Part shown: piece by piece, positions 983 to 33,201 of the stretch
How the letters are laid out: the number at the start of each line of letters is the position of its first letter
Numbering within the stretch: the first letter of the stretch is position 1
IMG/VR virus record: IMGVR_UViG_3300023215_000813
Location: 1 to 34,351 of that record
DNA from: a virus
Reading direction: 5' to 3' (one strand)
DNA: 34,351 bases
Notes under the pieces: model-generated
Databases searched by the model: none
What the model saw: only the letters and a program-made list of their open reading frames with translations
What the model was told of the DNA's origin: nothing
Translations under genes and position numbers: made by a program

Positions 983-1474
983 CTTCTTTTCTGTAAATTC
1001 TTGGCCATCGCCATAGTCTGGAACATTTTTACTATCCAGAGCTTGGGTTTCAGATTGACCATCACCATAATCGATTTTGATTTCTGTTACTTTAGGTTTT
1101 GGATTTTCATTACTATCTTGTAATTTAGTTAGTCTTTCTTTTACCCAGTTTGGAATTGGAATCCCCAGTTGTCCAAGATTTTCAATAATTGAGATTCCAT
1201 AAACAGCGATATAGAAAAAGACGAATGCAGTTGCAAACGTCTCGAGATTCATAATCTTTAGGTACGGATAAGCAATGATCACTAAGCACACAACTAGCAT
1301 ATGCTTAACAATGCCAAGTAATCCTTTTGTACTATTAGCGTCTTTGATAAATACCCCTTTGCAAAGTCCTGTCACGATATCTCCTACCACTACCCACAAG
1401 AACAGCTGCACATAACCATTTGTCAACAACCCTCGAAATTCATTTAGTAACACTCCATTATCAATAATCACCAT
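977..1474 (-). CDS. Phage holin (phage_holin_4 / toxin-secretion type)
   Basis: Small membrane protein that forms holes in the cytoplasmic membrane at the end of infection. It has three hydrophobic segments, near residues 21-40, 52-70 and 80-97 of 165, and a long charged cytoplasmic tail. This fits the phage_holin_4_1 family, though at 165 residues it is longer than the usual 130-140. The tail carries DYGDGQ twice, separated by 15 residues. An upstream in-frame GTG at 1483 lies on top of the AAAAGGTGG ribosome site, so the ATG at 1474 is the better start. Neighbours are Tal upstream and the amidase downstream; strong hairpins flank the gene on both sides. Confidence 0.88.
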   Translation of the reverse strand: MVIIDNGVLLNEFRGLLTNGYVQLFLWVVVGDIVTGLCKGVFIKDANSTKGLLGIVKHMLVVCLVIIAYPYLKIMNLETFATAFVFFYIAVYGISIIENLGQLGIPIPNWVKERLTKLQDSNENPKPKVTEIKIDYGDGQSETQALDSKNVPDYGDGQEFTEKKE

Positions 1475-1523
1475 ATTTACCACCTTTTCTATTAATTAAG
1501 CAAAATTAGAATTCCAACAAATT

Positions 1524-1555
1524 AACAAGAGCAACCTATTCTGGCTGCTCTTGTT
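1524..1555 (-). terminator. Strong hairpin (terminator-like) between Tal-module small gene and holin
   Basis: A 13-bp stem on the minus strand joins 1555-1543 and 1536-1524 around a six-base loop (AGAATA). It overlaps the stop codon of the 66-aa gene. The following bases AATTTGTT are only moderately T-rich, so termination may be partial. The arm sequence GGTTGCTC is the same as in the terminator after the holin. Confidence 0.6.
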
Positions 1556-1736
1556 CTATCATTTGTAACATTTTTGCTTTGACTGCTTCATTTACGAAGC
1601 TGAGATCTAAATCCTCTTTCGCTAACGTCACTTCTGACTGAAAAGACATGCCTTTCTTCTTGCTCGACACTGAAACCGAATAACCAGAAACATTGCCCGC
1701 ATTGTCATAAATAAACGAGATTGATGAAATAACCAT
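1536..1736 (-). CDS. Hypothetical 66-aa protein after the tail fibre gene
   Basis: A 66-residue protein of unknown function. The first half looks beta-rich (ISSISFIYDNAGNVSGYSV) and the second half helical and acidic, ending in EQEQPE. No membrane segment is present. A strong ribosome site AAAGGAGGGG precedes the ATG at 1736, and the start is only 15 bp after the Tal stop codon, so it is co-expressed with tail genes. Genes at this position in Gram-positive siphophages are often small virion or lysis-accessory proteins. That is context only; the sequence itself does not identify it. Confidence 0.75.
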   Translation of the reverse strand: MVISSISFIYDNAGNVSGYSVSVSSKKKGMSFQSEVTLAKEDLDLSFVNEAVKAKMLQMIEQEQPE

Positions 1737-1751
1737 CTGTTCCCCTCCTTT

Positions 1752-4301
1752 CTAGATATATACCTCACCTACCGCAGTGATCCGACTGTTTCCGCTGTTA
1801 TTCGATAGCTTATACAAACGCCCGTTTTCAACTTGGAATTTTTCAGTCGCACTCCCTTCAATCCAGACTGGAACGGTAAACATTTGTGGAAACCCTTCTC
1901 TTACCTTGTCTGGAAGAATGGCAACAGCGTTGCTGGTACTTGCTCCATTGGCTGAACCATTCCAAACAAATTGATCAAATCGAATTAGAATCCTGTTCAT
2001 GTAACGTTTTAAATAGATATCACCAGCAGTCCCTTTTAATCTGGTCACTTTAAGCCATCCGGTATCATAGAGCATTTCAGCAGACAGAGATCCAGCAAAC
2101 CCTGCCTCTCGATTATTCAATTGAATCAAATCAAAAGTCATGGAAGCTGATGCGATAAGTTTTGTTTGGTCTCCAATTGAATTTCCTTCATATCTGGACA
2201 TATGGATAAATTGATCACTGATCACTTGTTCGTAGGATTGAATGATTACGCCCGATGAATTACGAATGACTCCAGCATTTCTGGTTTCTGCGTCTTTGAT
2301 GGTTAGTTCACCAATTTTTATTGTTCCATCATCGTATCTCCGTGTGTAGGGATTCGAAAACTCTGAACCAACAATCAGCGCACCTTCAACACGTTTAAAC
2401 ACGCCGTTTTCAATTTGCACATTACTTGCAATCAAGTTATCAATGGAAATCCCCCAATGTATCCATTTTGTGCCATCCCATTTATACACAGTGCTTGTTG
2501 CATCATTCGGATCTTGCCACAAATCTTCTTTTGCTGGATTAGTTGGTGGTGTGGCAGAAATGATGATCGCATCTTTTCCTTGCTGAGCGACAAGATAGAA
2601 ATAAGCACTGTAGGTATTATCCGTATATTTGAACCTTGTTCGTGTCCACATATACCAACCCGCTTTAGGTGTGGGTCTAGTCCCTGACCATCCAGATGTC
2701 GGTGGATTTACTCCATCTTGAGAAATAGCATAGCTGATTTCTTCGGCAGATACGCCTTTGCCAGGGTCACCTTTCAATGGTTCTGTTTGTTTAACGCCCT
2801 CATCATCCTCAATCGTAAGCGAGCTGTCATCGTTAATTGTGATGATAGGACTTTTCCCTGGTTCCCCTTTTTTACCATCATCGATATTGGCAACCGTCAC
2901 CTCAGCACCACCACGCACGTTCCCCGAATCGTCTGCTACTTCAAAACGAAAGACTGCCTTTTCTTCGATATCTGCAGCATTGATTGTCACTGTCTTGGTA
3001 TTTGAAAACAAGGTGCCATCTTTAAACCATTTCAGACTAAAGGTATCTGTTACATCCTTGATACCATCTCTAACACGAGCAGTTAATGTGGTACTGCCGA
3101 ATCCATTTTTGAAAGTAACTCCATCACTAGTGATGATTTCATACGTAAAGACTTTATTTGCTTCGATCAATGCTTGAACACGAGTAAGTAGAGTAGTATC
3201 CACTTCTGATTGGAGAATCTGAGCATTAGTGAATACACCTGAGTCATTACTTGGTTTATCAAAATAGATATCCAATTCGCTAACTCTCATAGTCATATTA
3301 AGTGAAGGGTTGTATGCCTCATTTAAAACTCGAACAGTATCTCCAATCTGCAAGGTTTTATCAAAGCCTTTGACAGTAACAGTGAGTGTTACTTTGGCTC
3401 TTTTCTTTAACTCCGCCAACCCCTGTCCCGCCAATACGTTCTCATTTTCTGTATCGTACTCCCAAGGATAGGAAATGTATCCTTCGCCGTTCACCTTAGA
3501 AATAAATTGATTTTTGGCTTGAACGGCTCTGATATGTGCGTCTCCTTTAGGGCTATAAAACAGCCGGTTGCCATCAGCATCCTTTTCATCAATCACGACA
3601 TTGGTAATTAAAAGACCATCTTTCCCAATGGGTTTGATCGCCGTTTTTAAATCATCTATATTTTCATGGATTTCAATGGTTTCAACATTATTGCCTAGTT
3701 CTAGAATAATGTCTTGACGATTATTCCCGATCCCTTGGTATTTATCACTATTTGCTACAAATACATTGAGAATGATGTCAAGCAAACCCCAGTGCTGATT
3801 TAATCGGGTAACAAATTCAATCTCTGCATCAAATTTTGTTGCGAGACTAAACAAGCGAGACATGATATTTGAATCTTCTGCTTCCCACTCTAATTGCAAC
3901 TTCTTATTCGACACCTCGTTGATACCCATCACTAAAGGATTGTCTCCAGTAAATAAAAACACCTTCAGGTATTCCTCAAAGCTCATCGCTTTTGTTGCCT
4001 TATATGCAGGGATTTGTTCATTACGAAGCTCTAAAGTAAGACTATCTGCTTGTATAGTTACTATTTCTTCATCCTTAACCATATCTGTAATATCGAAATG
4101 AAAGGCAGTTGCGTTATAGAAAAAAGAAATTTTATTTCCTACAACAAAATACTGGGACAATTCCGAGTTTTGCAAAATAGAACATCGAAAGAAAGCAGCT
4201 GTTCCTTGTAAAAATCTATGAAGGTTTCCGTCAAAATAGTCATCAGTCACACAGAGCAATTGGTCTTTATTATCTAAGATTGCGATTAATGGACGTTCCA
4301 T
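1752..4301 (-). CDS. Tail-associated lysin / receptor-binding tail protein (Tal, prophage endopeptidase tail family)
   Basis: An 849-residue protein at the tail tip. Residues 1 to about 370 match the Prophage_tail (gp44-like) hub fold that docks on Dit. Next comes an Ig-like segment (about 385-470), short collagen-like linkers with Gly-x-Pro-like triplets (KKGEPGK, KGDPGKG), a WQDP/W repeat segment and a C-terminal beta-rich domain ending in GEVYI. That C-terminal domain resembles receptor-binding heads, so this gene probably carries host recognition. An ATG at 4322 has no ribosome site; the ATG at 4301 has AGAGG upstream and follows the Dit stop codon by one base, so I chose it. No peptidase or lysozyme motif is obvious. 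No separate receptor-binding gene follows. Confidence 0.85.
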   Translation of the reverse strand: MERPLIAILDNKDQLLCVTDDYFDGNLHRFLQGTAAFFRCSILQNSELSQYFVVGNKISFFYNATAFHFDITDMVKDEEIVTIQADSLTLELRNEQIPAYKATKAMSFEEYLKVFLFTGDNPLVMGINEVSNKKLQLEWEAEDSNIMSRLFSLATKFDAEIEFVTRLNQHWGLLDIILNVFVANSDKYQGIGNNRQDIILELGNNVETIEIHENIDDLKTAIKPIGKDGLLITNVVIDEKDADGNRLFYSPKGDAHIRAVQAKNQFISKVNGEGYISYPWEYDTENENVLAGQGLAELKKRAKVTLTVTVKGFDKTLQIGDTVRVLNEAYNPSLNMTMRVSELDIYFDKPSNDSGVFTNAQILQSEVDTTLLTRVQALIEANKVFTYEIITSDGVTFKNGFGSTTLTARVRDGIKDVTDTFSLKWFKDGTLFSNTKTVTINAADIEEKAVFRFEVADDSGNVRGGAEVTVANIDDGKKGEPGKSPIITINDDSSLTIEDDEGVKQTEPLKGDPGKGVSAEEISYAISQDGVNPPTSGWSGTRPTPKAGWYMWTRTRFKYTDNTYSAYFYLVAQQGKDAIIISATPPTNPAKEDLWQDPNDATSTVYKWDGTKWIHWGISIDNLIASNVQIENGVFKRVEGALIVGSEFSNPYTRRYDDGTIKIGELTIKDAETRNAGVIRNSSGVIIQSYEQVISDQFIHMSRYEGNSIGDQTKLIASASMTFDLIQLNNREAGFAGSLSAEMLYDTGWLKVTRLKGTAGDIYLKRYMNRILIRFDQFVWNGSANGASTSNAVAILPDKVREGFPQMFTVPVWIEGSATEKFQVENGRLYKLSNNSGNSRITAVGEVYI

Positions 4302-11125: not shown

Positions 11126-11161
11126 TCAAAAATAAAAAGGCTAGTCCGAAGACTAACCTTT
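11126..11161 (-). terminator. Intrinsic terminator between major tail protein and chaperone genes
   Basis: An 11-bp stem on the minus strand, AAAGGTTAGTC (11161-11151) with GACTAGCCTTT (11146-11136), closes on a stable TTCG tetraloop and is followed by TTATTTTT. It lies inside the late operon between two essential tail genes, so it must be leaky or overcome. It would give more major tail protein than downstream products. Confidence 0.88.
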
Positions 11162-11779: not shown

Positions 11780-11811
11780 TTATAAATTCCTCCTAATAAA
11801 ATAGACACCGA

Positions 11812-12207
11812 TTAATAATCAGTGTCATGAATTTGTGTGTTTTTTCGATAACGTCTTGCATCCACAAAGCGTTTTGTTTCTGAGAAATATTCGTCAAGCC
11901 CACCATTTAACTGAGCATAACCAAATTTCCACATCGCAGCTTTCACTGCTTTAGCAATTTCTTTCGTCAAAATCCTTGATTGAGTTTCAACGTTAATTTG
12001 ATAACTGAACGTTTGCGACATCTCTTTGTTGGCAGCATAATAAGCACTAGTCGGCGGCCCAAGTGGTGTATCGATGATAATAAAAGGTTTGGTCGAATCG
12101 AAGCTTTCAGGTACTTCATAGAATTTGATGTTCTTTGCAGTAACCTCTTTTGCAATCGTAGGATCAGCAGATAAAACGTTGTAGACTTCCATCATCATAT
12201 CTTTCAT
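11812..12207 (-). CDS. Tail terminator-like protein (DUF806-like)
   Basis: A 131-residue protein placed just before the major tail gene, where the tail terminator (which caps the tube and joins it to the head) is usually coded. It begins with a helix (MKDMMMEVYNVLSADPTIA) and has the PFIIIDTPLG strand and a central FSYQINVETQSRILTKEIAKAV strand-helix pair, as in DUF806 and related terminators. ATG at 12207 overlaps the upstream stop codon (ATGA). The role is inferred from place and weak family resemblance; no enzymatic motif is expected. Confidence 0.7.
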   Translation of the reverse strand: MKDMMMEVYNVLSADPTIAKEVTAKNIKFYEVPESFDSTKPFIIIDTPLGPPTSAYYAANKEMSQTFSYQINVETQSRILTKEIAKAVKAAMWKFGYAQLNGGLDEYFSETKRFVDARRYRKNTQIHDTDY

Positions 12208-16969: not shown

Positions 16970-18652
16970 CTAAAATTCGATTTCATCCAACATATCAAAG
17001 GCATCATCATAGTCGTAGTCAATGATTTCATCAGCACGCCATAGGCAGTATTCAAAAGCCTTGAAGCCGTCTGTCTTACGACGAACCTCTTCTTTCTTCT
17101 TGTATGATTTATTCCCATCACCGTTAGTCTTAACTAGTACATTGTTTGTGTACCAGCGCATCAATGGATTATCACCAAAGATAATGTGGTTATTTGCGAA
17201 TGCATCTTCAATCCTTGGCGCTAGTAAATTATCAGCAGCTGTTGGGTTTTTAATCACTTTGATTTCAAATCCTTCCTCCAAAAACAATGGTCGCAATAAA
17301 TCCATCCGGAAATTATCGGCTACTATTTTCGTTATACCGTATTTTTCACGTTGCTCAACAAACCAGCCGACAACTGTTTTAGGATCGATTGTGGGCCCAT
17401 CTATGACCGTCAGCAATCCTTTTTCTTCCCATTCCCTTATCGGTGCAAATTTTTCTTTTGTAGTTTCAGAAGCTTTACGAGAATATCCGTAGTAAATGTC
17501 CACAAATTGCTTTCTAACGAACGAATGGGTCTTGAATACATAATCATCCCCATCACGAAACAAAAGCCCACAAGCGGCGAAATCACGCAGACTGGCATAG
17601 TCTAAACCGCCAATGGCTTGTTTGCCGATTAGGTTTGTTGGGAATGGTCTGTTGGTTGCCAGAATCTCTTCACGACTAGCCACCGATCGTTCTAAGTCTG
17701 TGACAGGTAAGTTCATACGTTTAGTCATGAACTCTTCTCGGTTGCTTGGATCGTCTTCCAAATCCTCGTATTCTTCCATAACAGTTTCGTAAAGATTGTC
17801 CGCATACTCAGATAGTGGCTGATGAAACATGGGATTGGCTAATTCCCAGTTGTCAGGATCATTGACCTGTTCTTCTGAGTCTAGTTTGCAAATGAAAGGA
17901 AAAAGAGCATTGAAACGGACTGAACCGCTCAACACTCTTTTCGCTTTTTCTTTCATGTCGTCCAAGAATCCCTCACGAACATAACCGTCAGTCCCCACAT
18001 AAAACTCCCTCGGGTTCGGGCGTTTACCAAGCCCACTAATATGGACTTTTACATCTTTGTTCGATTCGTATCGATGGATTTCATCAAAAGCTACTGCTCC
18101 ATCACGCAATCCATCTTTTGTATCGCCATTACTAGTACGGAATTTTATCTTGCTTGCAGTCTTTTTGCTGGTGATCACAGACTTGCCATATTCGAAAGCT
18201 TTTTGTAAAGTCTTATTCCGCTTGATTGTATTGTATATCTCTTCGAATGATGTTTTCGCTTGATCCTCACTATTAGCAACGATCGAAATATTGTAGTCCA
18301 TGATGCCATGCATTTCGGTTTGCAGAAAGTTTAGTACCACAGATAGCAGTCCGTTTTTTCCTCCACCACGACCAAACATCCATAGGAACTTACGATAAAC
18401 ATTCCGGTCATTCTTTTTGAAATAAAAAAAGATAAATGCGATTAAGAACTTCTGGAATGGCAGCATTGGGAAATACCATTTCTCACCATAAGCAATGCAC
18501 TTATCAATCATCACATCATCGAAGTAAACATCATCCCGACTAAGAACATCACGTTCTAAATACTCAATTAAATCTGCTCGCTCTTTGTTAAACTTTATTT
18601 TCCCTGATTTGAATTGTTCGATATAGTAATCAACATGTTTTTGATGAATCAT
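16970..18652 (-). CDS. terL: Terminase large subunit
   Basis: A 560-residue motor and nuclease that packages DNA into heads. The ATPase half has a Walker A-like GRGGGKN (about 94-100) and a Walker B AVAFDEIH (about 186-193, catalytic Glu after Asp). The C-terminal RNase H-like nuclease has acidic residues in GGLDYASLRDF, VADNFRMD and KTDGFKAFEYC. It belongs to the Terminase_1 (HK97/cos-type) group. ATG at 18652 overlaps the small subunit stop (ATGA), so the two subunits are translationally coupled. With the HNH gene and cos-like region upstream it suggests cohesive-end packaging. Confidence 0.95.
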   Translation of the reverse strand: MIHQKHVDYYIEQFKSGKIKFNKERADLIEYLERDVLSRDDVYFDDVMIDKCIAYGEKWYFPMLPFQKFLIAFIFFYFKKNDRNVYRKFLWMFGRGGGKNGLLSVVLNFLQTEMHGIMDYNISIVANSEDQAKTSFEEIYNTIKRNKTLQKAFEYGKSVITSKKTASKIKFRTSNGDTKDGLRDGAVAFDEIHRYESNKDVKVHISGLGKRPNPREFYVGTDGYVREGFLDDMKEKAKRVLSGSVRFNALFPFICKLDSEEQVNDPDNWELANPMFHQPLSEYADNLYETVMEEYEDLEDDPSNREEFMTKRMNLPVTDLERSVASREEILATNRPFPTNLIGKQAIGGLDYASLRDFAACGLLFRDGDDYVFKTHSFVRKQFVDIYYGYSRKASETTKEKFAPIREWEEKGLLTVIDGPTIDPKTVVGWFVEQREKYGITKIVADNFRMDLLRPLFLEEGFEIKVIKNPTAADNLLAPRIEDAFANNHIIFGDNPLMRWYTNNVLVKTNGDGNKSYKKKEEVRRKTDGFKAFEYCLWRADEIIDYDYDDAFDMLDEIEF

Positions 18653-18966
18653 GTTAGATCACTCTCATCGTAATCATCTTGATTATCAGTGACTACTTTA
18701 CCGTTCAAATCATCAAGGTTAAGGTCTTTACCAAGAGCAATAATTGCACGAGAAATCGTAACTTTTTGAGCGATTGCTGGGTTAGTTTTAAGATACGTTT
18801 GAGTGCCGTTAAAGCCTTCGACAATTGGTCCGTATTGCTTAACAGCTTTATCCATTTTTCGATAAAGCCTAACTAAATCAAGGTATCTCTCAACTTTTTC
18901 AAGTTCCATCTGATCGTTTACGTCAATCTGTCTCAGCAACTGTTTCTTTAAATCTGACATCTTCAA
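18649..18966 (-). CDS. terS: Terminase small subunit (P27 family)
   Basis: A 105-residue helical DNA-recognition subunit. The pattern YLDLVRLYRKMDKAVKQYGPIVEGFNGTQTYLKTNPA is that of the P27/Terminase_4 small terminases, with a conserved LKTNPAI and a C-terminal acidic tail (DNQDDYDESDL). It binds the packaging site and hands DNA to TerL. TTG at 18966 has AGGGGGGTGA nine bases upstream and fits better than the ATG two codons later. The GC-rich non-coding stretch just upstream is the likely site it binds. Confidence 0.88.
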   Translation of the reverse strand: MKMSDLKKQLLRQIDVNDQMELEKVERYLDLVRLYRKMDKAVKQYGPIVEGFNGTQTYLKTNPAIAQKVTISRAIIALGKDLNLDDLNGKVVTDNQDDYDESDLT

Positions 18967-19098
18967 AGGCTCTCACCCCCCTAGCAAAAAATTTTTAGTC
19001 ATAAATTTGGACAGTTGACCCCTCCCACCGGTTCCCTAGATTGGGATTTGACCCCAAAATAATTCGACCGGGGGTATGTTGGTCCCCACTTTCATTTG
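18967..19098 (-). other. Candidate cos / packaging site (non-coding, GC-rich)
   Basis: This 132-bp stretch has no gene and is much richer in C and G runs than its surroundings. On the plus strand it has TTGACCCC at 19015-19022 and again at 19048-19055, and a related TTGGTCCCC at 19079-19087. An inverted GACC/GGTC pair (19066-19084) surrounds GGGGGTATGTT. It lies between the HNH endonuclease operon and TerS, where cohesive-end phages of Gram-positive bacteria keep their cos site. The nick positions cannot be read from sequence. Confidence 0.5.
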
Positions 19099-19365: not shown

Positions 19366-19685
19366 TGATTCATTACCTCCCCAGTGATTCGATCAATAGA
19401 TAATACTTTCTGTTTGGGATCATCATAAGTCACATAAATAAATGTAATCACATTGGTTCCTTCATCCCAGTCGTGTTTTGTTACATAGTGATTCGTCATT
19501 GATACAACTCCGACTTCGCAACCTTTGATATTCAGTTTAGGAACATGTCCATTCAAATCGAAGCTAACGTCTTCGCTATTCAATCTCAACACTCCCTCGT
19601 AATTAATACCTCCCACACCCAATATAGGTGTAGGAACCCAGTCATTCTGTGTACTGAGTAATCTTTTCAAAATACCTACCACCAC
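19362..19685 (-). CDS. Hypothetical 107-aa protein between HNH endonuclease and packaging site
   Basis: A 107-residue protein with many predicted strands (NYEGVLRLNSEDVSFDL, KLNIKGCEVGVVSM, TNVITFIYVTYDD) ending in DRITGEVMNQ. I know no family for it. The start is uncertain: GTG at 19685 overlaps the HNH stop region, while TTG at 19673 has GGTAGG just upstream. It is coupled by ATGA to the next gene. Together with the 88-aa gene it forms a two-gene unknown pair between the HNH nuclease and TerS. Confidence 0.65.
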   Translation of the reverse strand: MVVGILKRLLSTQNDWVPTPILGVGGINYEGVLRLNSEDVSFDLNGHVPKLNIKGCEVGVVSMTNHYVTKHDWDEGTNVITFIYVTYDDPKQKVLSIDRITGEVMNQ

Positions 19686-19990
19686 TCATCATCCCACTTT
19701 CTTTTCTTTGGTTGCCCACGATAGTTCATTCGATCGTGTCGCTTATTGTGACAGTCCTTACATAACGTTCTTAGATTGTCTGGATCAAACGCCAGCTCTG
19801 GATTTGTTTCTAACTCTTTGATGTGATCGACTTCCAGTATCGAATCATACTGTGTAGTCAGTCTGCCTTCTGCTTTACACCACTGGCATTCATAGTGATC
19901 TCTCTCAAGTATTACCTGCCTTAGATTTCTCCACTTAGTCGATCCATAAAACCTAGCTCGATCCGCTTTGGTTTTTACAACAGGTATCAT
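19676..19990 (-). CDS. HNH endonuclease (packaging-associated)
   Basis: A 104-residue HNH nuclease. Zinc ligands are CQWC (Cys35, Cys38) and CKDC (Cys77, Cys80); the beta-beta-alpha metal site has EVDHI (Asp55, His56), Asn72 in DPDNLRTL and His81 in DCHNKRH. In HK97 and many cos-type phages an HNH protein next to the terminase is needed together with TerL for cutting at cos, so this is its likely job. ATG at 19990 overlaps the upstream stop codon. It lies about 0.6 kb before TerS. Confidence 0.93.
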   Translation of the reverse strand: MIPVVKTKADRARFYGSTKWRNLRQVILERDHYECQWCKAEGRLTTQYDSILEVDHIKELETNPELAFDPDNLRTLCKDCHNKRHDRMNYRGQPKKRKWDDEWW

Positions 19991-20316
19991 TGTTCTTTGG
20001 CTAATTGCTCAACGTAAACATTTACCAAGGCTCTTTGCACTTGTAAGATTCCATCTACTCCAAGCTGAGTGACATCAAGATTCATACGTTCTTTTATAAA
20101 CGTTGCGTTGACAGGTGCCTCAAGTGATCGCTTCATCATGTAATAATTCAGTGCTGCAAGTTCATCTACCTTTAGTCCGTAAGCTGTAATGATTTTCCAG
20201 AACAGATCAGCAATAGCATCCATGTCCTTCTCTTCTCGCAACTGAGTTAGCATCTTGATGAAGTCGTCTTGCTTTTCTGGAACAGATTTCTTTTTATGAT
20301 CCTGCAGTTTCTTCAT
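19987..20316 (-). CDS. Hypothetical 109-aa helical protein before HNH gene
   Basis: A 109-residue helical protein with a basic start (MKKLQDHKKKSVPEKQ) and helices KMLTQLREEKDMDAIADLF and VDGILQVQRALVNVYVEQL. I do not recognise it. An in-frame GTG at 20325 overlaps the AAGGAG ribosome site, so ATG at 20316, eight bases after AAGGAG, is the start. The ATGA overlap with the HNH gene couples them. A strong terminator lies just upstream, so the promoter for this gene must be beyond it or the transcript must read through. Confidence 0.7.
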   Translation of the reverse strand: MKKLQDHKKKSVPEKQDDFIKMLTQLREEKDMDAIADLFWKIITAYGLKVDELAALNYYMMKRSLEAPVNATFIKERMNLDVTQLGVDGILQVQRALVNVYVEQLAKEQ

Positions 20317-20338: not shown

Positions 20339-20370
20339 AATAAAAAACACCTGAGGTTAATCAGGTGTTT
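20339..20370 (-). terminator. Strong intrinsic terminator after the membrane-protein gene
   Basis: AAACACCTGA (20370-20361) and TCAGGTGTTT (20354-20345) form a perfect 10-bp stem around a six-base loop, followed on the minus strand by TTTATT. It ends the membrane-protein cassette and stands between the late leader and the packaging genes. Confidence 0.9.
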
Positions 20371-20379
20371 AGACGAATT

Positions 20380-20715
20380 TTATTCTGTACCCATGATGTA
20401 TTCATATGCTTCTTTAACAAAGAAAAAAGATGCGATAAAAGCTAAAATCAGTTTATTCTCAACTAATTCTAAAGAAATGGATATTAAACCAGCGCATATT
20501 AACAATGTGGTTAATACTCTATAACCAGTCTTTTTAAACTTATCATCTTTTTCAATTTTTCTAATATAATAATCAAGTAAACAAAACATGACGCCAATAA
20601 TACCTCCAAGTATTAGATAGCCTACTTTATCTGTAAATATATTTAAATGATTTAAAATAAGTAATAATGCAAAAAATATTGCCATCAACGTCTTCCATTT
20701 ATTTTTATTCGACAT
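20380..20715 (-). CDS. Small membrane protein in a self-contained cassette
   Basis: A 111-residue protein with four hydrophobic segments: near TLMAIFFALLLILNHLNIF, VGYLILGGIIGVMFCLLDYY, VLTTLLICAGLISISLELV and LILAFIASFFFVKEAY. No family is recognised. ATG at 20715 is chosen; an upstream GTG at 20724 is too close to the AAAGGAG site. It has a candidate promoter upstream (20749-20777) and a strong terminator downstream (20339-20370), and is bracketed by a second terminator on its other side. Base composition is more AT-rich than neighbours. This is the layout of a moron; membrane position suggests a lysogenic or superinfection-exclusion role, which is unproven. Confidence 0.75.
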   Translation of the reverse strand: MSNKNKWKTLMAIFFALLLILNHLNIFTDKVGYLILGGIIGVMFCLLDYYIRKIEKDDKFKKTGYRVLTTLLICAGLISISLELVENKLILAFIASFFFVKEAYEYIMGTE

Positions 20716-20748
20716 CAGTAACACACTCTCCTTTTATACGATACATCC

Positions 20749-20777
20749 ATCATACCGAATTTAAAAAGAAAAGTGAA
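20749..20777 (-). promoter_or_regulatory. Candidate sigma-A promoter for the membrane-protein cassette
   Basis: On the minus strand TTCACT (20777-20772) and TATGAT (20754-20749) are separated by exactly 17 bp. The -10 matches consensus at five of six bases, the -35 at four of six. It lies just downstream of the leader terminator and upstream of the membrane-protein start. Confidence 0.55.
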
Positions 20778-20781
20778 TAAT

Positions 20782-20849
20782 AAAAAGACAGCACTAGCGA
20801 ATTCTGAAATGAGGAGATTCACCTCGATTCAAAAAATTGTGCTGTCTTT
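20782..20849 (-). terminator. Leader terminator with branched loop
   Basis: AAAGACAGCAC (20849-20839) pairs perfectly with GTGCTGTCTTT (20794-20784) and is followed by TTATTATT on the minus strand. The 44-base loop contains its own GAGG/CCTC stem (20825-20822 with 20814-20811). The long closing stem and T tract make it a likely terminator or attenuator at the end of the leader. Confidence 0.65.
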
Positions 20850-20947
20850 CTATTCCTGTCAAAGAAGTAAAGCGATGAGGGATTAGCCCCCTTTCGGTAT
20901 TTGGAATAGTGTGAGTAGTCCAACAACCGGCTCTCCGTTTCTTCTAC
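20784..20947 (-). ncRNA. Candidate structured late leader RNA / small RNA
   Basis: The 290-bp gap between the late regulator and the membrane-protein gene has no convincing coding frame. If RNA starts near 20947 (after the TATAGT box), it would run about 165 bases to the terminator at 20784. Inside, CGGTTGTTGG (20929-20920) pairs with CCAAATACCG (20904-20895) as two 4-bp stems around a 2x2 internal loop, and GGGGGCTAATCCC forms a small hairpin. I checked for a tRNA and found no T-loop or acceptor match. The layout resembles the lambda pR'-tR' leader (6S RNA). The RNA is inferred; the structures are read directly. Confidence 0.45.
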
Positions 20948-20953
20948 GCTATT

Positions 20954-20988
20954 ACTATAACCTGTTTAAATCAAGAAATATACACAGG
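20954..20988 (-). promoter_or_regulatory. Candidate late promoter with activator dyad
   Basis: On the minus strand a -10-like TATAGT (20959-20954) lies one base after an inverted repeat CCTGTGTA (20988-20981) / TAAACAGG (20968-20961); half-sites agree at seven of eight bases. There is no good -35 box, and the dyad covers the place where it would be. That is the usual arrangement for a promoter needing an activator. The DUF1492-type regulator gene ends only 27 bp upstream and is the natural candidate. Confidence 0.45.
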
Positions 20989-21014: not shown

Positions 21015-21485
21015 TCAAAACAAACTTAACTGATCTTGATCCGCTGAATAGTAGTCCATTTCTTCTTGCTTCTTCAAGCGTTCCTCTCGCCGTGCCTCAT
21101 ACTCATCCACGAATGATAATGTCTTGCGAATCTCTGTATGCCGCTTTCTTATATAAGATACGCTGTAGCCTGTAGCATCTGCTATATCATAAACATCCAT
21201 GTCATCAATATACTTTAATTTAACAATTTGATTGTCTGCACCGCTGAACGAATCAATCAATTCCATCAGTTCAACTTTTTCTTTTTCAAGCAGCTCTAGT
21301 TCATTCTCTATGATCCTGATGTTTTCTTCCAACGATGATGATCTTGAATTTTTTTCAAGGCGCACGTTTGCTAAATCACCGTTGACCCATCGATCTAATT
21401 CCAACCTACTCTTGTTAAGATTCCATTTCATGAAGAGTATTTGTTCTTCTAAGTCTTGGTAGTTTTTAAGCCATTGAAATCTCAC
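21015..21485 (-). CDS. Late transcription regulator, DUF1492 / sigma-70 region 4-like
   Basis: A 156-residue protein with a coiled first half (NYQDLEEQILFMKWNLNKS, then ENELELLEKEKVELMELI) and a C-terminal helix-turn-helix like sigma region 4: NQIVKLKYIDDMDVYDIADATGYSVSYIRKRH split over about residues 84-118. This is the DUF1492/ArpU/RinA-like group that sits before the terminase genes in Gram-positive phages and is thought to activate late transcription. GTG at 21485 has AAAGGGGTGG five bases upstream; a longer frame open to 21521 has no ribosome site. The candidate late promoter lies immediately after the gene. Confidence 0.82.
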   Translation of the reverse strand: MRFQWLKNYQDLEEQILFMKWNLNKSRLELDRWVNGDLANVRLEKNSRSSSLEENIRIIENELELLEKEKVELMELIDSFSGADNQIVKLKYIDDMDVYDIADATGYSVSYIRKRHTEIRKTLSFVDEYEARREERLKKQEEMDYYSADQDQLSLF

Positions 21486-21551
21486 AAACGCCACCCCTTT
21501 ATGGTAAAATAGTCTTGTCACAGGTCACTTACCCAAAAGGTAGTGGCTTTT

Positions 21552-32538: not shown

Positions 32539-32565
32539 TTTTCAATTTCCTTTCTGTTGTATAAT
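32539..32565 (+). promoter_or_regulatory. Candidate promoter for the plus-strand membrane protein
   Basis: A perfect TATAAT (32560-32565) lies about 25 bases before the ATG at 32590. A TTTTCA at 32539-32544 gives a 15-bp spacer, which is short, and TTGTCA at 32532-32537 gives a spacer that is too long, so only the -10 is convincing. It faces away from the Rha gene. Confidence 0.55.
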
Positions 32566-32589
32566 TGTTTAAAAACTGGTGGTGCTTAT

Positions 32590-33201
32590 ATGGATTCAAC
32601 TATTACCCTTGCATTTCTTGTAACTCTTATCTCGATAATCTCTCCTGTTATGACATCGATAATTAATAAGAGTTATGATTTGAAAGTTAAATCGGCAGAG
32701 TTGAGAAAAGAATCTCTATCTGTCAGCTACGATAGAATGTATGAAACATTCAAAACTTTTCTGATAGACTCAAGCGTTGTTATCTTGCAATTTGATTCTG
32801 ATAACAAACCTACCATTGAGGAATTCAAAAAATTTGAATCATCTTGCCTATCGTGTTTTTTATTTTTGAATGAAAACGAACGTAAAATATTTGAAGATTT
32901 CCGTATACTCATAAAGATGAAAATGGGATATGACGATCCCAGACCCAAGACAGTTCTACAATTAGCGTGGGGTTATGATATATATAAAGCACACGCCGTA
33001 CTAGAAGCTTTGAGTGGTAAAAAAGGAGATGAACTTTTTTTATCTTTCAACAAATGCATATCTATCGCTAACCAAAAATTGGATAAAGTAACACAAGAAG
33101 AATCGCAGCTATTATCATCAATCCGTAAAGCACACAAATTTTCAATTCCCATTCATTTAAAGCCCCTACAAGATAGAAACAAAAAAGACACAGAAGAATA
33201 A
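32590..33201 (+). CDS. Membrane-anchored protein on the opposite strand, cargo candidate
   Basis: A 203-residue protein with one N-terminal membrane segment (TLAFLVTLISIISPVMTSI, about residues 6-24) followed by a helical cytoplasmic part (DLKVKSAELRKESLS, KKFESSCLSCFLFLNENER) and a Lys-rich end. I recognise no family. It runs against the whole early operon, has its own TATAAT promoter and GGTGG ribosome site (ATG at 32590), and shares a terminator with the gene it converges on. This is the layout of a gene expressed in the lysogen. Superinfection exclusion or host defence is a reasonable idea, not shown. Confidence 0.75.
   Translation: MDSTITLAFLVTLISIISPVMTSIINKSYDLKVKSAELRKESLSVSYDRMYETFKTFLIDSSVVILQFDSDNKPTIEEFKKFESSCLSCFLFLNENERKIFEDFRILIKMKMGYDDPRPKTVLQLAWGYDIYKAHAVLEALSGKKGDELFLSFNKCISIANQKLDKVTQEESQLLSSIRKAHKFSIPIHLKPLQDRNKKDTEE

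Follow-up and report, generated by a model that had tools for sequence, protein, structure and literature searches.

How temperate phages of Gram-positive bacteria carry transcription past terminators and into their late genes is poorly described, and the known late regulators are called activators. This question is raised by a locus in a viral stretch of 34,351 nt (IMG/VR record IMGVR_UViG_3300023215_000813, analyzed in full and referred to here as the window). On its minus strand a presumed late promoter is followed by a structured leader, a predicted terminator, a cargo gene and another predicted terminator, all upstream of the first conserved late gene. The locus lies between the late regulator gene (21521–21015) and the late genes, as a preliminary description of the DNA had reported, and the leader is best explained, judging from its sequence, as the 5′ leader of the late transcript of an Enterococcus prophage.

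The late transcription regulator (168 aa, 21015–21521, minus strand) matches phrog_36 (E = 3e-18), which places it by similarity in the ArpU/Ltr late activator superfamily; its similarity to DUF1492 and sigma-70 region 4 is sub-threshold, and it showed no match to TIGR01637 or to a Q-family antiterminator. The TATAGT box and the inverted repeat in front of it, both noticed before, are present on the minus strand. The box (20959–20954) is the presumed −10 element of the late promoter and lies within the conserved string TATA(G/T)TAATAGCG, with TATAGTAATAG matching exactly at 20959–20949; the transcript is expected to start at approximately position 20947. No recognizable −35 element was found in the window at 17 nt from TATAGT, where the sequence reads TATATT. 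This fits an activated promoter, and activation by the regulator gene product is plausible from knowledge of the family. The inverted repeat CCTGTGTA/TAAACAGG (20961–20988, minus strand; arms 20988–20981 and 20968–20961) had been proposed as the activator site. As it is perfect in only three of 19 close relatives (the window, L003 and L024), with AAACGGG as the right arm in most of the 19, it is a poor candidate and we rejected it.

The leader folds far more stably than expected from its composition: the predicted free energy of positions 20950–20770 (181 nt) is −56.3 kcal/mol, compared to −38.4 ± 4.1 kcal/mol in dinucleotide shuffles (z = −4.4, an excess contributed in part by the distal hairpin), and none of 200 shuffles was as stable. 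In the window the predicted RNA consists of a three-way junction (approximately 20947–20858) and a subsequent long hairpin (20854–20779), and the hairpins described earlier for this non-coding stretch, at least three in number, are all present. The structured core, domain A (20851–20955, minus strand, the span of the covariance model R1, which scores it at 127 bits), is closed by P1 (20945–20941/20867–20863), followed by P2 (20937–20932/20878–20873), which has one mismatch. P3 (20929–20926/20898–20895) and P3b (20923–20919/20905–20901) bear the loop CUACUCACA (20910–20918), which caps P3b and is near-invariant across all homologues, and P4 (20891–20888/20882–20879) is a short G-rich hairpin; all of these elements are on the minus strand.

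Homologues maintain the pairing of this structure through compensatory changes, which puts it far beyond chance. In alignments fitted to the covariance model, and for that reason biased towards its structure with inflated pairing, double-sided changes were found in 17 of the 25 pairs among 48 homologues (6.7 in shuffles), with 95% of cells paired in the 48 matches against 43–66% when partners were slid, and in 21 of 25 pairs among 37 diverse sequences (11.9 in shuffles), where 97 cells carried double changes (25.8 in shuffles). The covariation of the stems in related phages to which the preliminary description had looked is therefore borne out. RNAalifold alone recovered P3, P3b and P4, and 12 of the 14 pairs covaried; the support for P1 and P2 is weaker than for these three. 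Compensatory versions can be read directly in L167 (GUCUUCAAGA-CUACUCACAAUAA-UCUUGAGAC), L025 (UUUAGAUUACUCACAUUACUCUAAA) and L185 (GAUAUUUG-GCUACUCACAAAUUAAUUU-CAAAUAUC). From these comparisons it appears virtually certain that the leader is a structured, conserved RNA.

The distal part, domain B (20775–20854, minus strand), is a long hairpin followed by the U-tract TTTTTATTATTC, and is the predicted leader terminator in the clade of the window. A stem of 11 bp with a T tract had been described here; stem and U-tract are present, and the outer stem is longer, at 16 bp with 94% complementarity (arms 20839–20854 and 20779–20794). It encloses an A/U-rich internal loop and an apical GAGGUGAAUCUCCUC (20825–20811), the apical stem-loop of the window RNA reading GGAGNUGA...CUCC. 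The outer stem occurs in different versions (GACAGCAC/GTGCTGTC, GGCGGCAC/GTGCCGCC, AAGACGGCG/CGCCGTCTT and GTCACTTGCAGAC/GTTTGCAAGTGAC), all of which surround an A-rich internal loop and an apical GGAG(G/U)UGA...CUCC stem-loop. When 20 representatives were compared with 200 flank shuffles each, the outer stem was unmatched by any shuffle in 14, and the search did not resolve L143 and L148. No U-tract follows domain B in L168, L169, L178 and L201–L203, and a separate terminator comes after it in at least L168, L171 and L178. Since several lineages lack the U-tract, domain B seems to be primarily an RNA domain, which serves as a terminator in some of the lineages only; of its earlier description as a terminator, the prediction stands for the clade of the window.

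A blastn search of the leader against the phage collection gave no match, and relatives were therefore sought with the regulator protein, degenerate patterns and covariance models. The protein search yielded 21 viral contigs and four Enterococcus genomes, including E. innesii and E. casseliflavus, in all of which the leader lies directly behind the regulator gene. Model R1 was built from 21 cores, and R2 and R3 were rebuilt on larger sets. Pattern search and R1 identified the same core at loci with a different regulator and promoter, and R2 and R3 reached members at 25–58 bits; in those inspected, the leader lies downstream of a late regulator gene, with terminase or other late genes after it. 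In total, covariance-model searches found more than 50 copies of the leader in phages and prophages of Enterococcaceae. In a sample of the family, 10 of 105 genomes had matches at E ≤ 0.05, of which one or two are doubtful; the E-values are rough, and many members are closely related. No match judged real was found outside the Enterococcaceae in an order sample of 395 genomes and a class sample of 398; a match at G223/L114, near a pflA-like gene, was rejected as chance. In the search of the 398 Bacilli genomes the centre genome was the only match, so that in this sampling the family seems confined to Enterococcaceae, under strict filters that distant members may escape. L112, L170 and L173 were set apart as doubtful or degenerate copies. 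Two of them, L112:1501–1602 (minus strand) and L173:1501–1604, are AT-rich degenerate leaders from a single bacterial genome; they contain a GACAGC hairpin and are not near evident late phage genes, and L112 adjoins an apparent cell-wall-anchored protein gene.

Rfam gave no matches in the window at the gathering threshold, and no credible match to the leader, in the window or in distant members, at relaxed thresholds. No described late RNA antiterminator of a Gram-positive phage was found in the open-access literature searched, and a keyword search of a dRNA-seq paper on E. faecalis and E. faecium (PMC7724050) found no mention of the leader. A 2026 paper on Ltr of S. aureus mentions neither terminators nor antitermination (PMC13123087).

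What the leader may do is suggested by the genes and terminators that follow it. In the window, a promoter-like TTCACT-17-TATGAT sequence (20749–20777, minus strand) precedes a cargo (moron) gene (20380–20724, minus strand) for a hydrophobic product of 114 aa, probably a membrane protein. A second predicted intrinsic terminator, AAACACCTGATTAACCTCAGGTGTTT-TTTATTAT (20345–20370, minus strand), lies 28 nt before the first conserved late gene, which matches phrog_11846 (19987–20316, minus strand; ATG at 20316, longest ORF 20325–19987). The genes for an HNH endonuclease (19676–19990, minus strand) and the small and large terminase subunits (terS and terL, 16970–18966, minus strand) follow in this order. 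The late operon itself holds a predicted terminator-like hairpin before the major tail protein gene (11804–11826, minus strand) and a predicted intrinsic terminator after it (11136–11161, minus strand). The non-coding gap before terS (18967–19098) contains GC-rich repeats (CCCCCGGTCG and GGGAGGGGTCAAC) and is possibly the packaging site. Outside the minus-strand genes, an ORF of 214 aa (32557–33201, plus strand) without a PHROG match adjoins an anti-repressor gene.

The cargo gene behind the leader differs in nearly every relative, and many cargo genes bring their own terminator. In 15 distinct records the phrog_11846 gene starts 10–28 nt after a predicted, non-homologous intrinsic terminator that closes the cargo cassette; the leader terminator (−17 to −30 kcal/mol) lies upstream in the same records, with 0.5–1.8 kb of variable cargo in between. 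With the first late gene this close behind a terminator, there are at least two terminators that the late RNA polymerase has to pass, and the gaps are so short that a sigma-A promoter does not fit them unless it overlaps the terminator. Variants of this arrangement were also seen. In L143 the leader terminator extends into the ribosome-binding site that serves the first late gene. L185 and L196 retain the core but have no terminator directly after it. In L080 the distal hairpin behind the same core is unrelated, and it is followed by an antisense cargo gene, another cargo gene and its terminator, and the late gene; in this region (L080:1249–2381) the antisense gene occupies 1274–1852 (minus strand) and the sense cargo has its own terminator, and late RNA must pass both.

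Besides the hydrophobic protein of the window, the cargo includes TIR proteins, a PD-T7-4-like protein, a DUF5677 protein and tRNAs. The cargo at L015:3791–4622 is a TIR-domain protein near PADLOC TIR-TM (E = 9e-62), that of L004 matches a TIR 'Effector' model, and that of L084 matches PD-T7-4; by these similarities the slot looks like a hotspot for defence genes. Genes for tRNAs are found behind the late leader at L134:929–1001 (Ile), L148:4498–4570 (Ile), L172:1320–1395 (Met), L170:1798–1873 (Arg), L201:2223–2295 (Asn) and L202:2605–2679 (Arg), and a tRNA-like GTCACTGTGGCGGAA...CCAGTGACA, not called by ARAGORN, is present at L109, L136 and L137.

If the predicted terminators are functional, the late genes can be expressed only by a polymerase able to disregard terminators that are unrelated in sequence, which is the meaning of processive antitermination. 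We regard this succession of additional terminators and cargo cassettes behind the leader as the decisive argument, from the layout of the loci, for the leader probably being a cis-acting processive-antitermination RNA. Like other members of that class, it has a conserved, covarying structure and stands at the 5′ end of an operon with predicted intrinsic terminators before essential genes; in conjugation operons, internal intrinsic terminators have served as a hallmark of processive antitermination (PMC8955417). We can propose only tentatively that the leader belongs to an RNA family not described before, which would render RNA polymerase resistant to terminators on late operons of Gram-positive phages, with RNA and host factors only. 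An RNA-only mechanism, taken by itself, is possible but somewhat doubtful.

In the proposed mechanism, the regulator product would activate the late promoter, as expected for its family, and the first ~170 nt of the RNA would fold into domain A, a three-way junction with the protruding CUACUCACA hairpin, and domain B. The folded leader would then act in cis on its own RNA polymerase and convert it into a terminator-resistant elongation complex, able to pass the leader terminator, the cargo terminator or terminators and the internal late terminators, and thereby to reach the packaging, head, tail and lysis genes. Polymerases without this modification, for instance those that started in the early operon or at the cargo promoter, would stop at these terminators, so that cargo could be expressed from the prophage without switching on the late genes. 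Antitermination activity and processivity are what we infer from this arrangement; host Nus factors or a phage protein may take part. The terminators could also be leaky, or a hidden promoter could overlap the cargo terminator.

Among the other explanations, Q-like antitermination by a protein survives best, even if it appears unlikely. Here the late regulator, similar to sigma region 4, would load onto polymerase at the promoter or at a promoter-proximal pause and carry it through the terminators, with the RNA as a pause or loading aid only. Lambda Q acts at promoter–terminator–late gene sites of such architecture. The same order is found in L097–L100 with a similar regulator and no recognizable core (in L098, TATAGTAATAGCATAG is followed by a terminator), which makes a protein contribution or other RNA types possible; in addition, a class-B regulator homologue weakly matches phrog_79, a Q-like antitermination protein (E = 9e-4). 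However, the family is annotated as 'transcriptional activator' (ArpU/Ltr), the window protein has no Q match, and the strongly conserved fold far exceeds the length of a pause site. The fold also persists when its neighbors change: the core accompanies regulators of two families, phrog_36, as in the window, and ArpU/phrog_248, with phrog_248 and TIGR01637 matching the regulators of other leader-carrying phages, and the promoter repeats in front of the same core are wholly different (TTTGGCG, TAGGG and CGGTCATTTTCC). That the core persists across these different regulators and promoter repeats favors the leader over the regulator as the antiterminating element, and a special role in RNA function for the DUF1492-type protein, named as activator in the preliminary description, is not supported. 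Put, EAR and canT, described below, are precedents for RNA antiterminators that need no phage protein. That leader and regulator are conserved side by side does leave room for a protein partner.

Conditional attenuation, in which the leader, on sensing a protein or small molecule, would make its own distal hairpin act as a terminator or not and leave the polymerase unmodified, is more unlikely still. A terminator hairpin does directly follow the structured RNA in most members. No upstream segment complementary to the 5′ arm of the terminator was found in the window leader, however, and an antiterminator helix was rejected for want of such alternative pairing. The terminator is absent in L185 and L196, so that the core must be more than the sensing half of an attenuator; the absence of the U-tract in the six members listed above and the unrelated distal hairpin of L080 likewise argue against it, and attenuation leaves the passage of the second, non-homologous terminators 10–28 nt before the late gene unexplained. 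Of the preliminary proposal of an attenuating or antiterminating leader with an architecture like lambda pR′-tR′, the late leader and the architecture hold; antitermination is the most likely function, and simple attenuation is less likely than processive antitermination.

A terminated small RNA of ~170 nt that acts in trans, with the late genes expressed by leaky read-through or from another promoter, is improbable. The compact structured RNA with promoter and terminator would suit it, as would the degenerate copies in L112 and L173 outside an evident phage context, but with the exception of those two the leader always heads a late operon, some members lack the terminator, and no second late-type promoter was found downstream in the window. 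An insulating terminator with an untranslated leader of no special function, conserved through common descent of the module, would fit the near-identity of close relatives and the recombination of phage modules, but it is very hard to reconcile with compensatory double-sided changes in 17–21 of 25 pairs and with a near-invariant loop in sequences whose flanks are otherwise unrelated.

Processive antitermination by the leader can be compared with known systems. The put element of phage HK022 is an RNA-only antiterminator (PMC9378689), which the terminator-resistance role of the leader probably resembles, by analogy, as it works in E. coli. Both are structured RNAs after a phage promoter, heading a terminator-containing operon, with no dedicated phage protein evident. 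Put differs in being ~70 nt long, with two stem-loops that contact the β′ zinc-binding domain, and in serving early operons of lambdoid phages, whereas the leader has a three-way junction and a long hairpin as its consensus and heads late operons of Enterococcaceae phages. The cis-acting RNA antiterminator canT of Tn916, a mobile element found in Enterococcus, is processive on heterologous terminators (PMC11658703) and consists of a 452-nt fragment with complex folding. The leader model reached at best 6.3 bits (E = 4.7) over the canT region of pCF10, and homology to canT was rejected. EAR of the Bacillus eps operons and conAn of pLS20 are further Gram-positive processive-antitermination RNAs (PMC8955417) and, like the leader, head long operons that contain internal terminators. 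The EAR model did not match the leader in the Rfam scans. ConAn needs the protein ConAn1, and the leader model gave no match in positions 1–40000 of pLS20, a stretch in which the position of conAn is unconfirmed. Overall we consider it fairly likely, by analogy, that the leader works like put, EAR and canT, while our tests gave no sign of homology to EAR or canT.

Lambda pR′-tR′ likewise combines a late promoter with a short, terminator-ended leader, and in Stx phages cargo and tRNA genes follow this leader, ahead of the late genes. The lambda leader is not known to be a conserved multi-helix RNA, and in place of Q, the leader-carrying phages have regulators of the ArpU/Ltr activator type.

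Leaders of other types were observed in related phages. In the E. faecalis phages phiEf11, phiFL2A and phiFL3A (L201–L203, approximately 2060–2215) a long near-perfect hairpin, ATCGAAAGTCAAAG...CTTTCGAT, unrelated to domain A, takes its place and is followed by a domain B-like hairpin and then tRNA genes; this is possibly a second, unrelated type of antitermination RNA. The E. faecium phages L162–L164, L166 and L200 have in common the promoter GATATTATGATAGTGTCGAAAGATT and a domain B-like hairpin; their domain A is different or shortened, and B1578 and 4995_2 retain a P4-like hairpin (GGGAGGAAATCTCCC). In L180–L182, L184, L187 and L199 a shortened core is followed by a conserved, structured-looking GCTAAAGTCCAGCTCTGCGGAAACAGGGTTGGCAAGCGACCGTGTATCGTG before the late genes.

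If the proposed reading is correct, the leader would do in Gram-positive phages the job that Q does in lambda, and to our knowledge no RNA antiterminator of a phage late operon has been known before. RNA elements that suppress termination would be useful tools for long operons in Gram-positive hosts. For the phages themselves, such a leader would allow cassettes of promoter, gene and terminator, carrying defence genes or tRNAs, to be gathered without loss of late expression. It would also explain a cargo hotspot in which TIR-domain and other defence-like genes, tRNAs and membrane proteins have been inserted at a point where virion production would otherwise be blocked by them.
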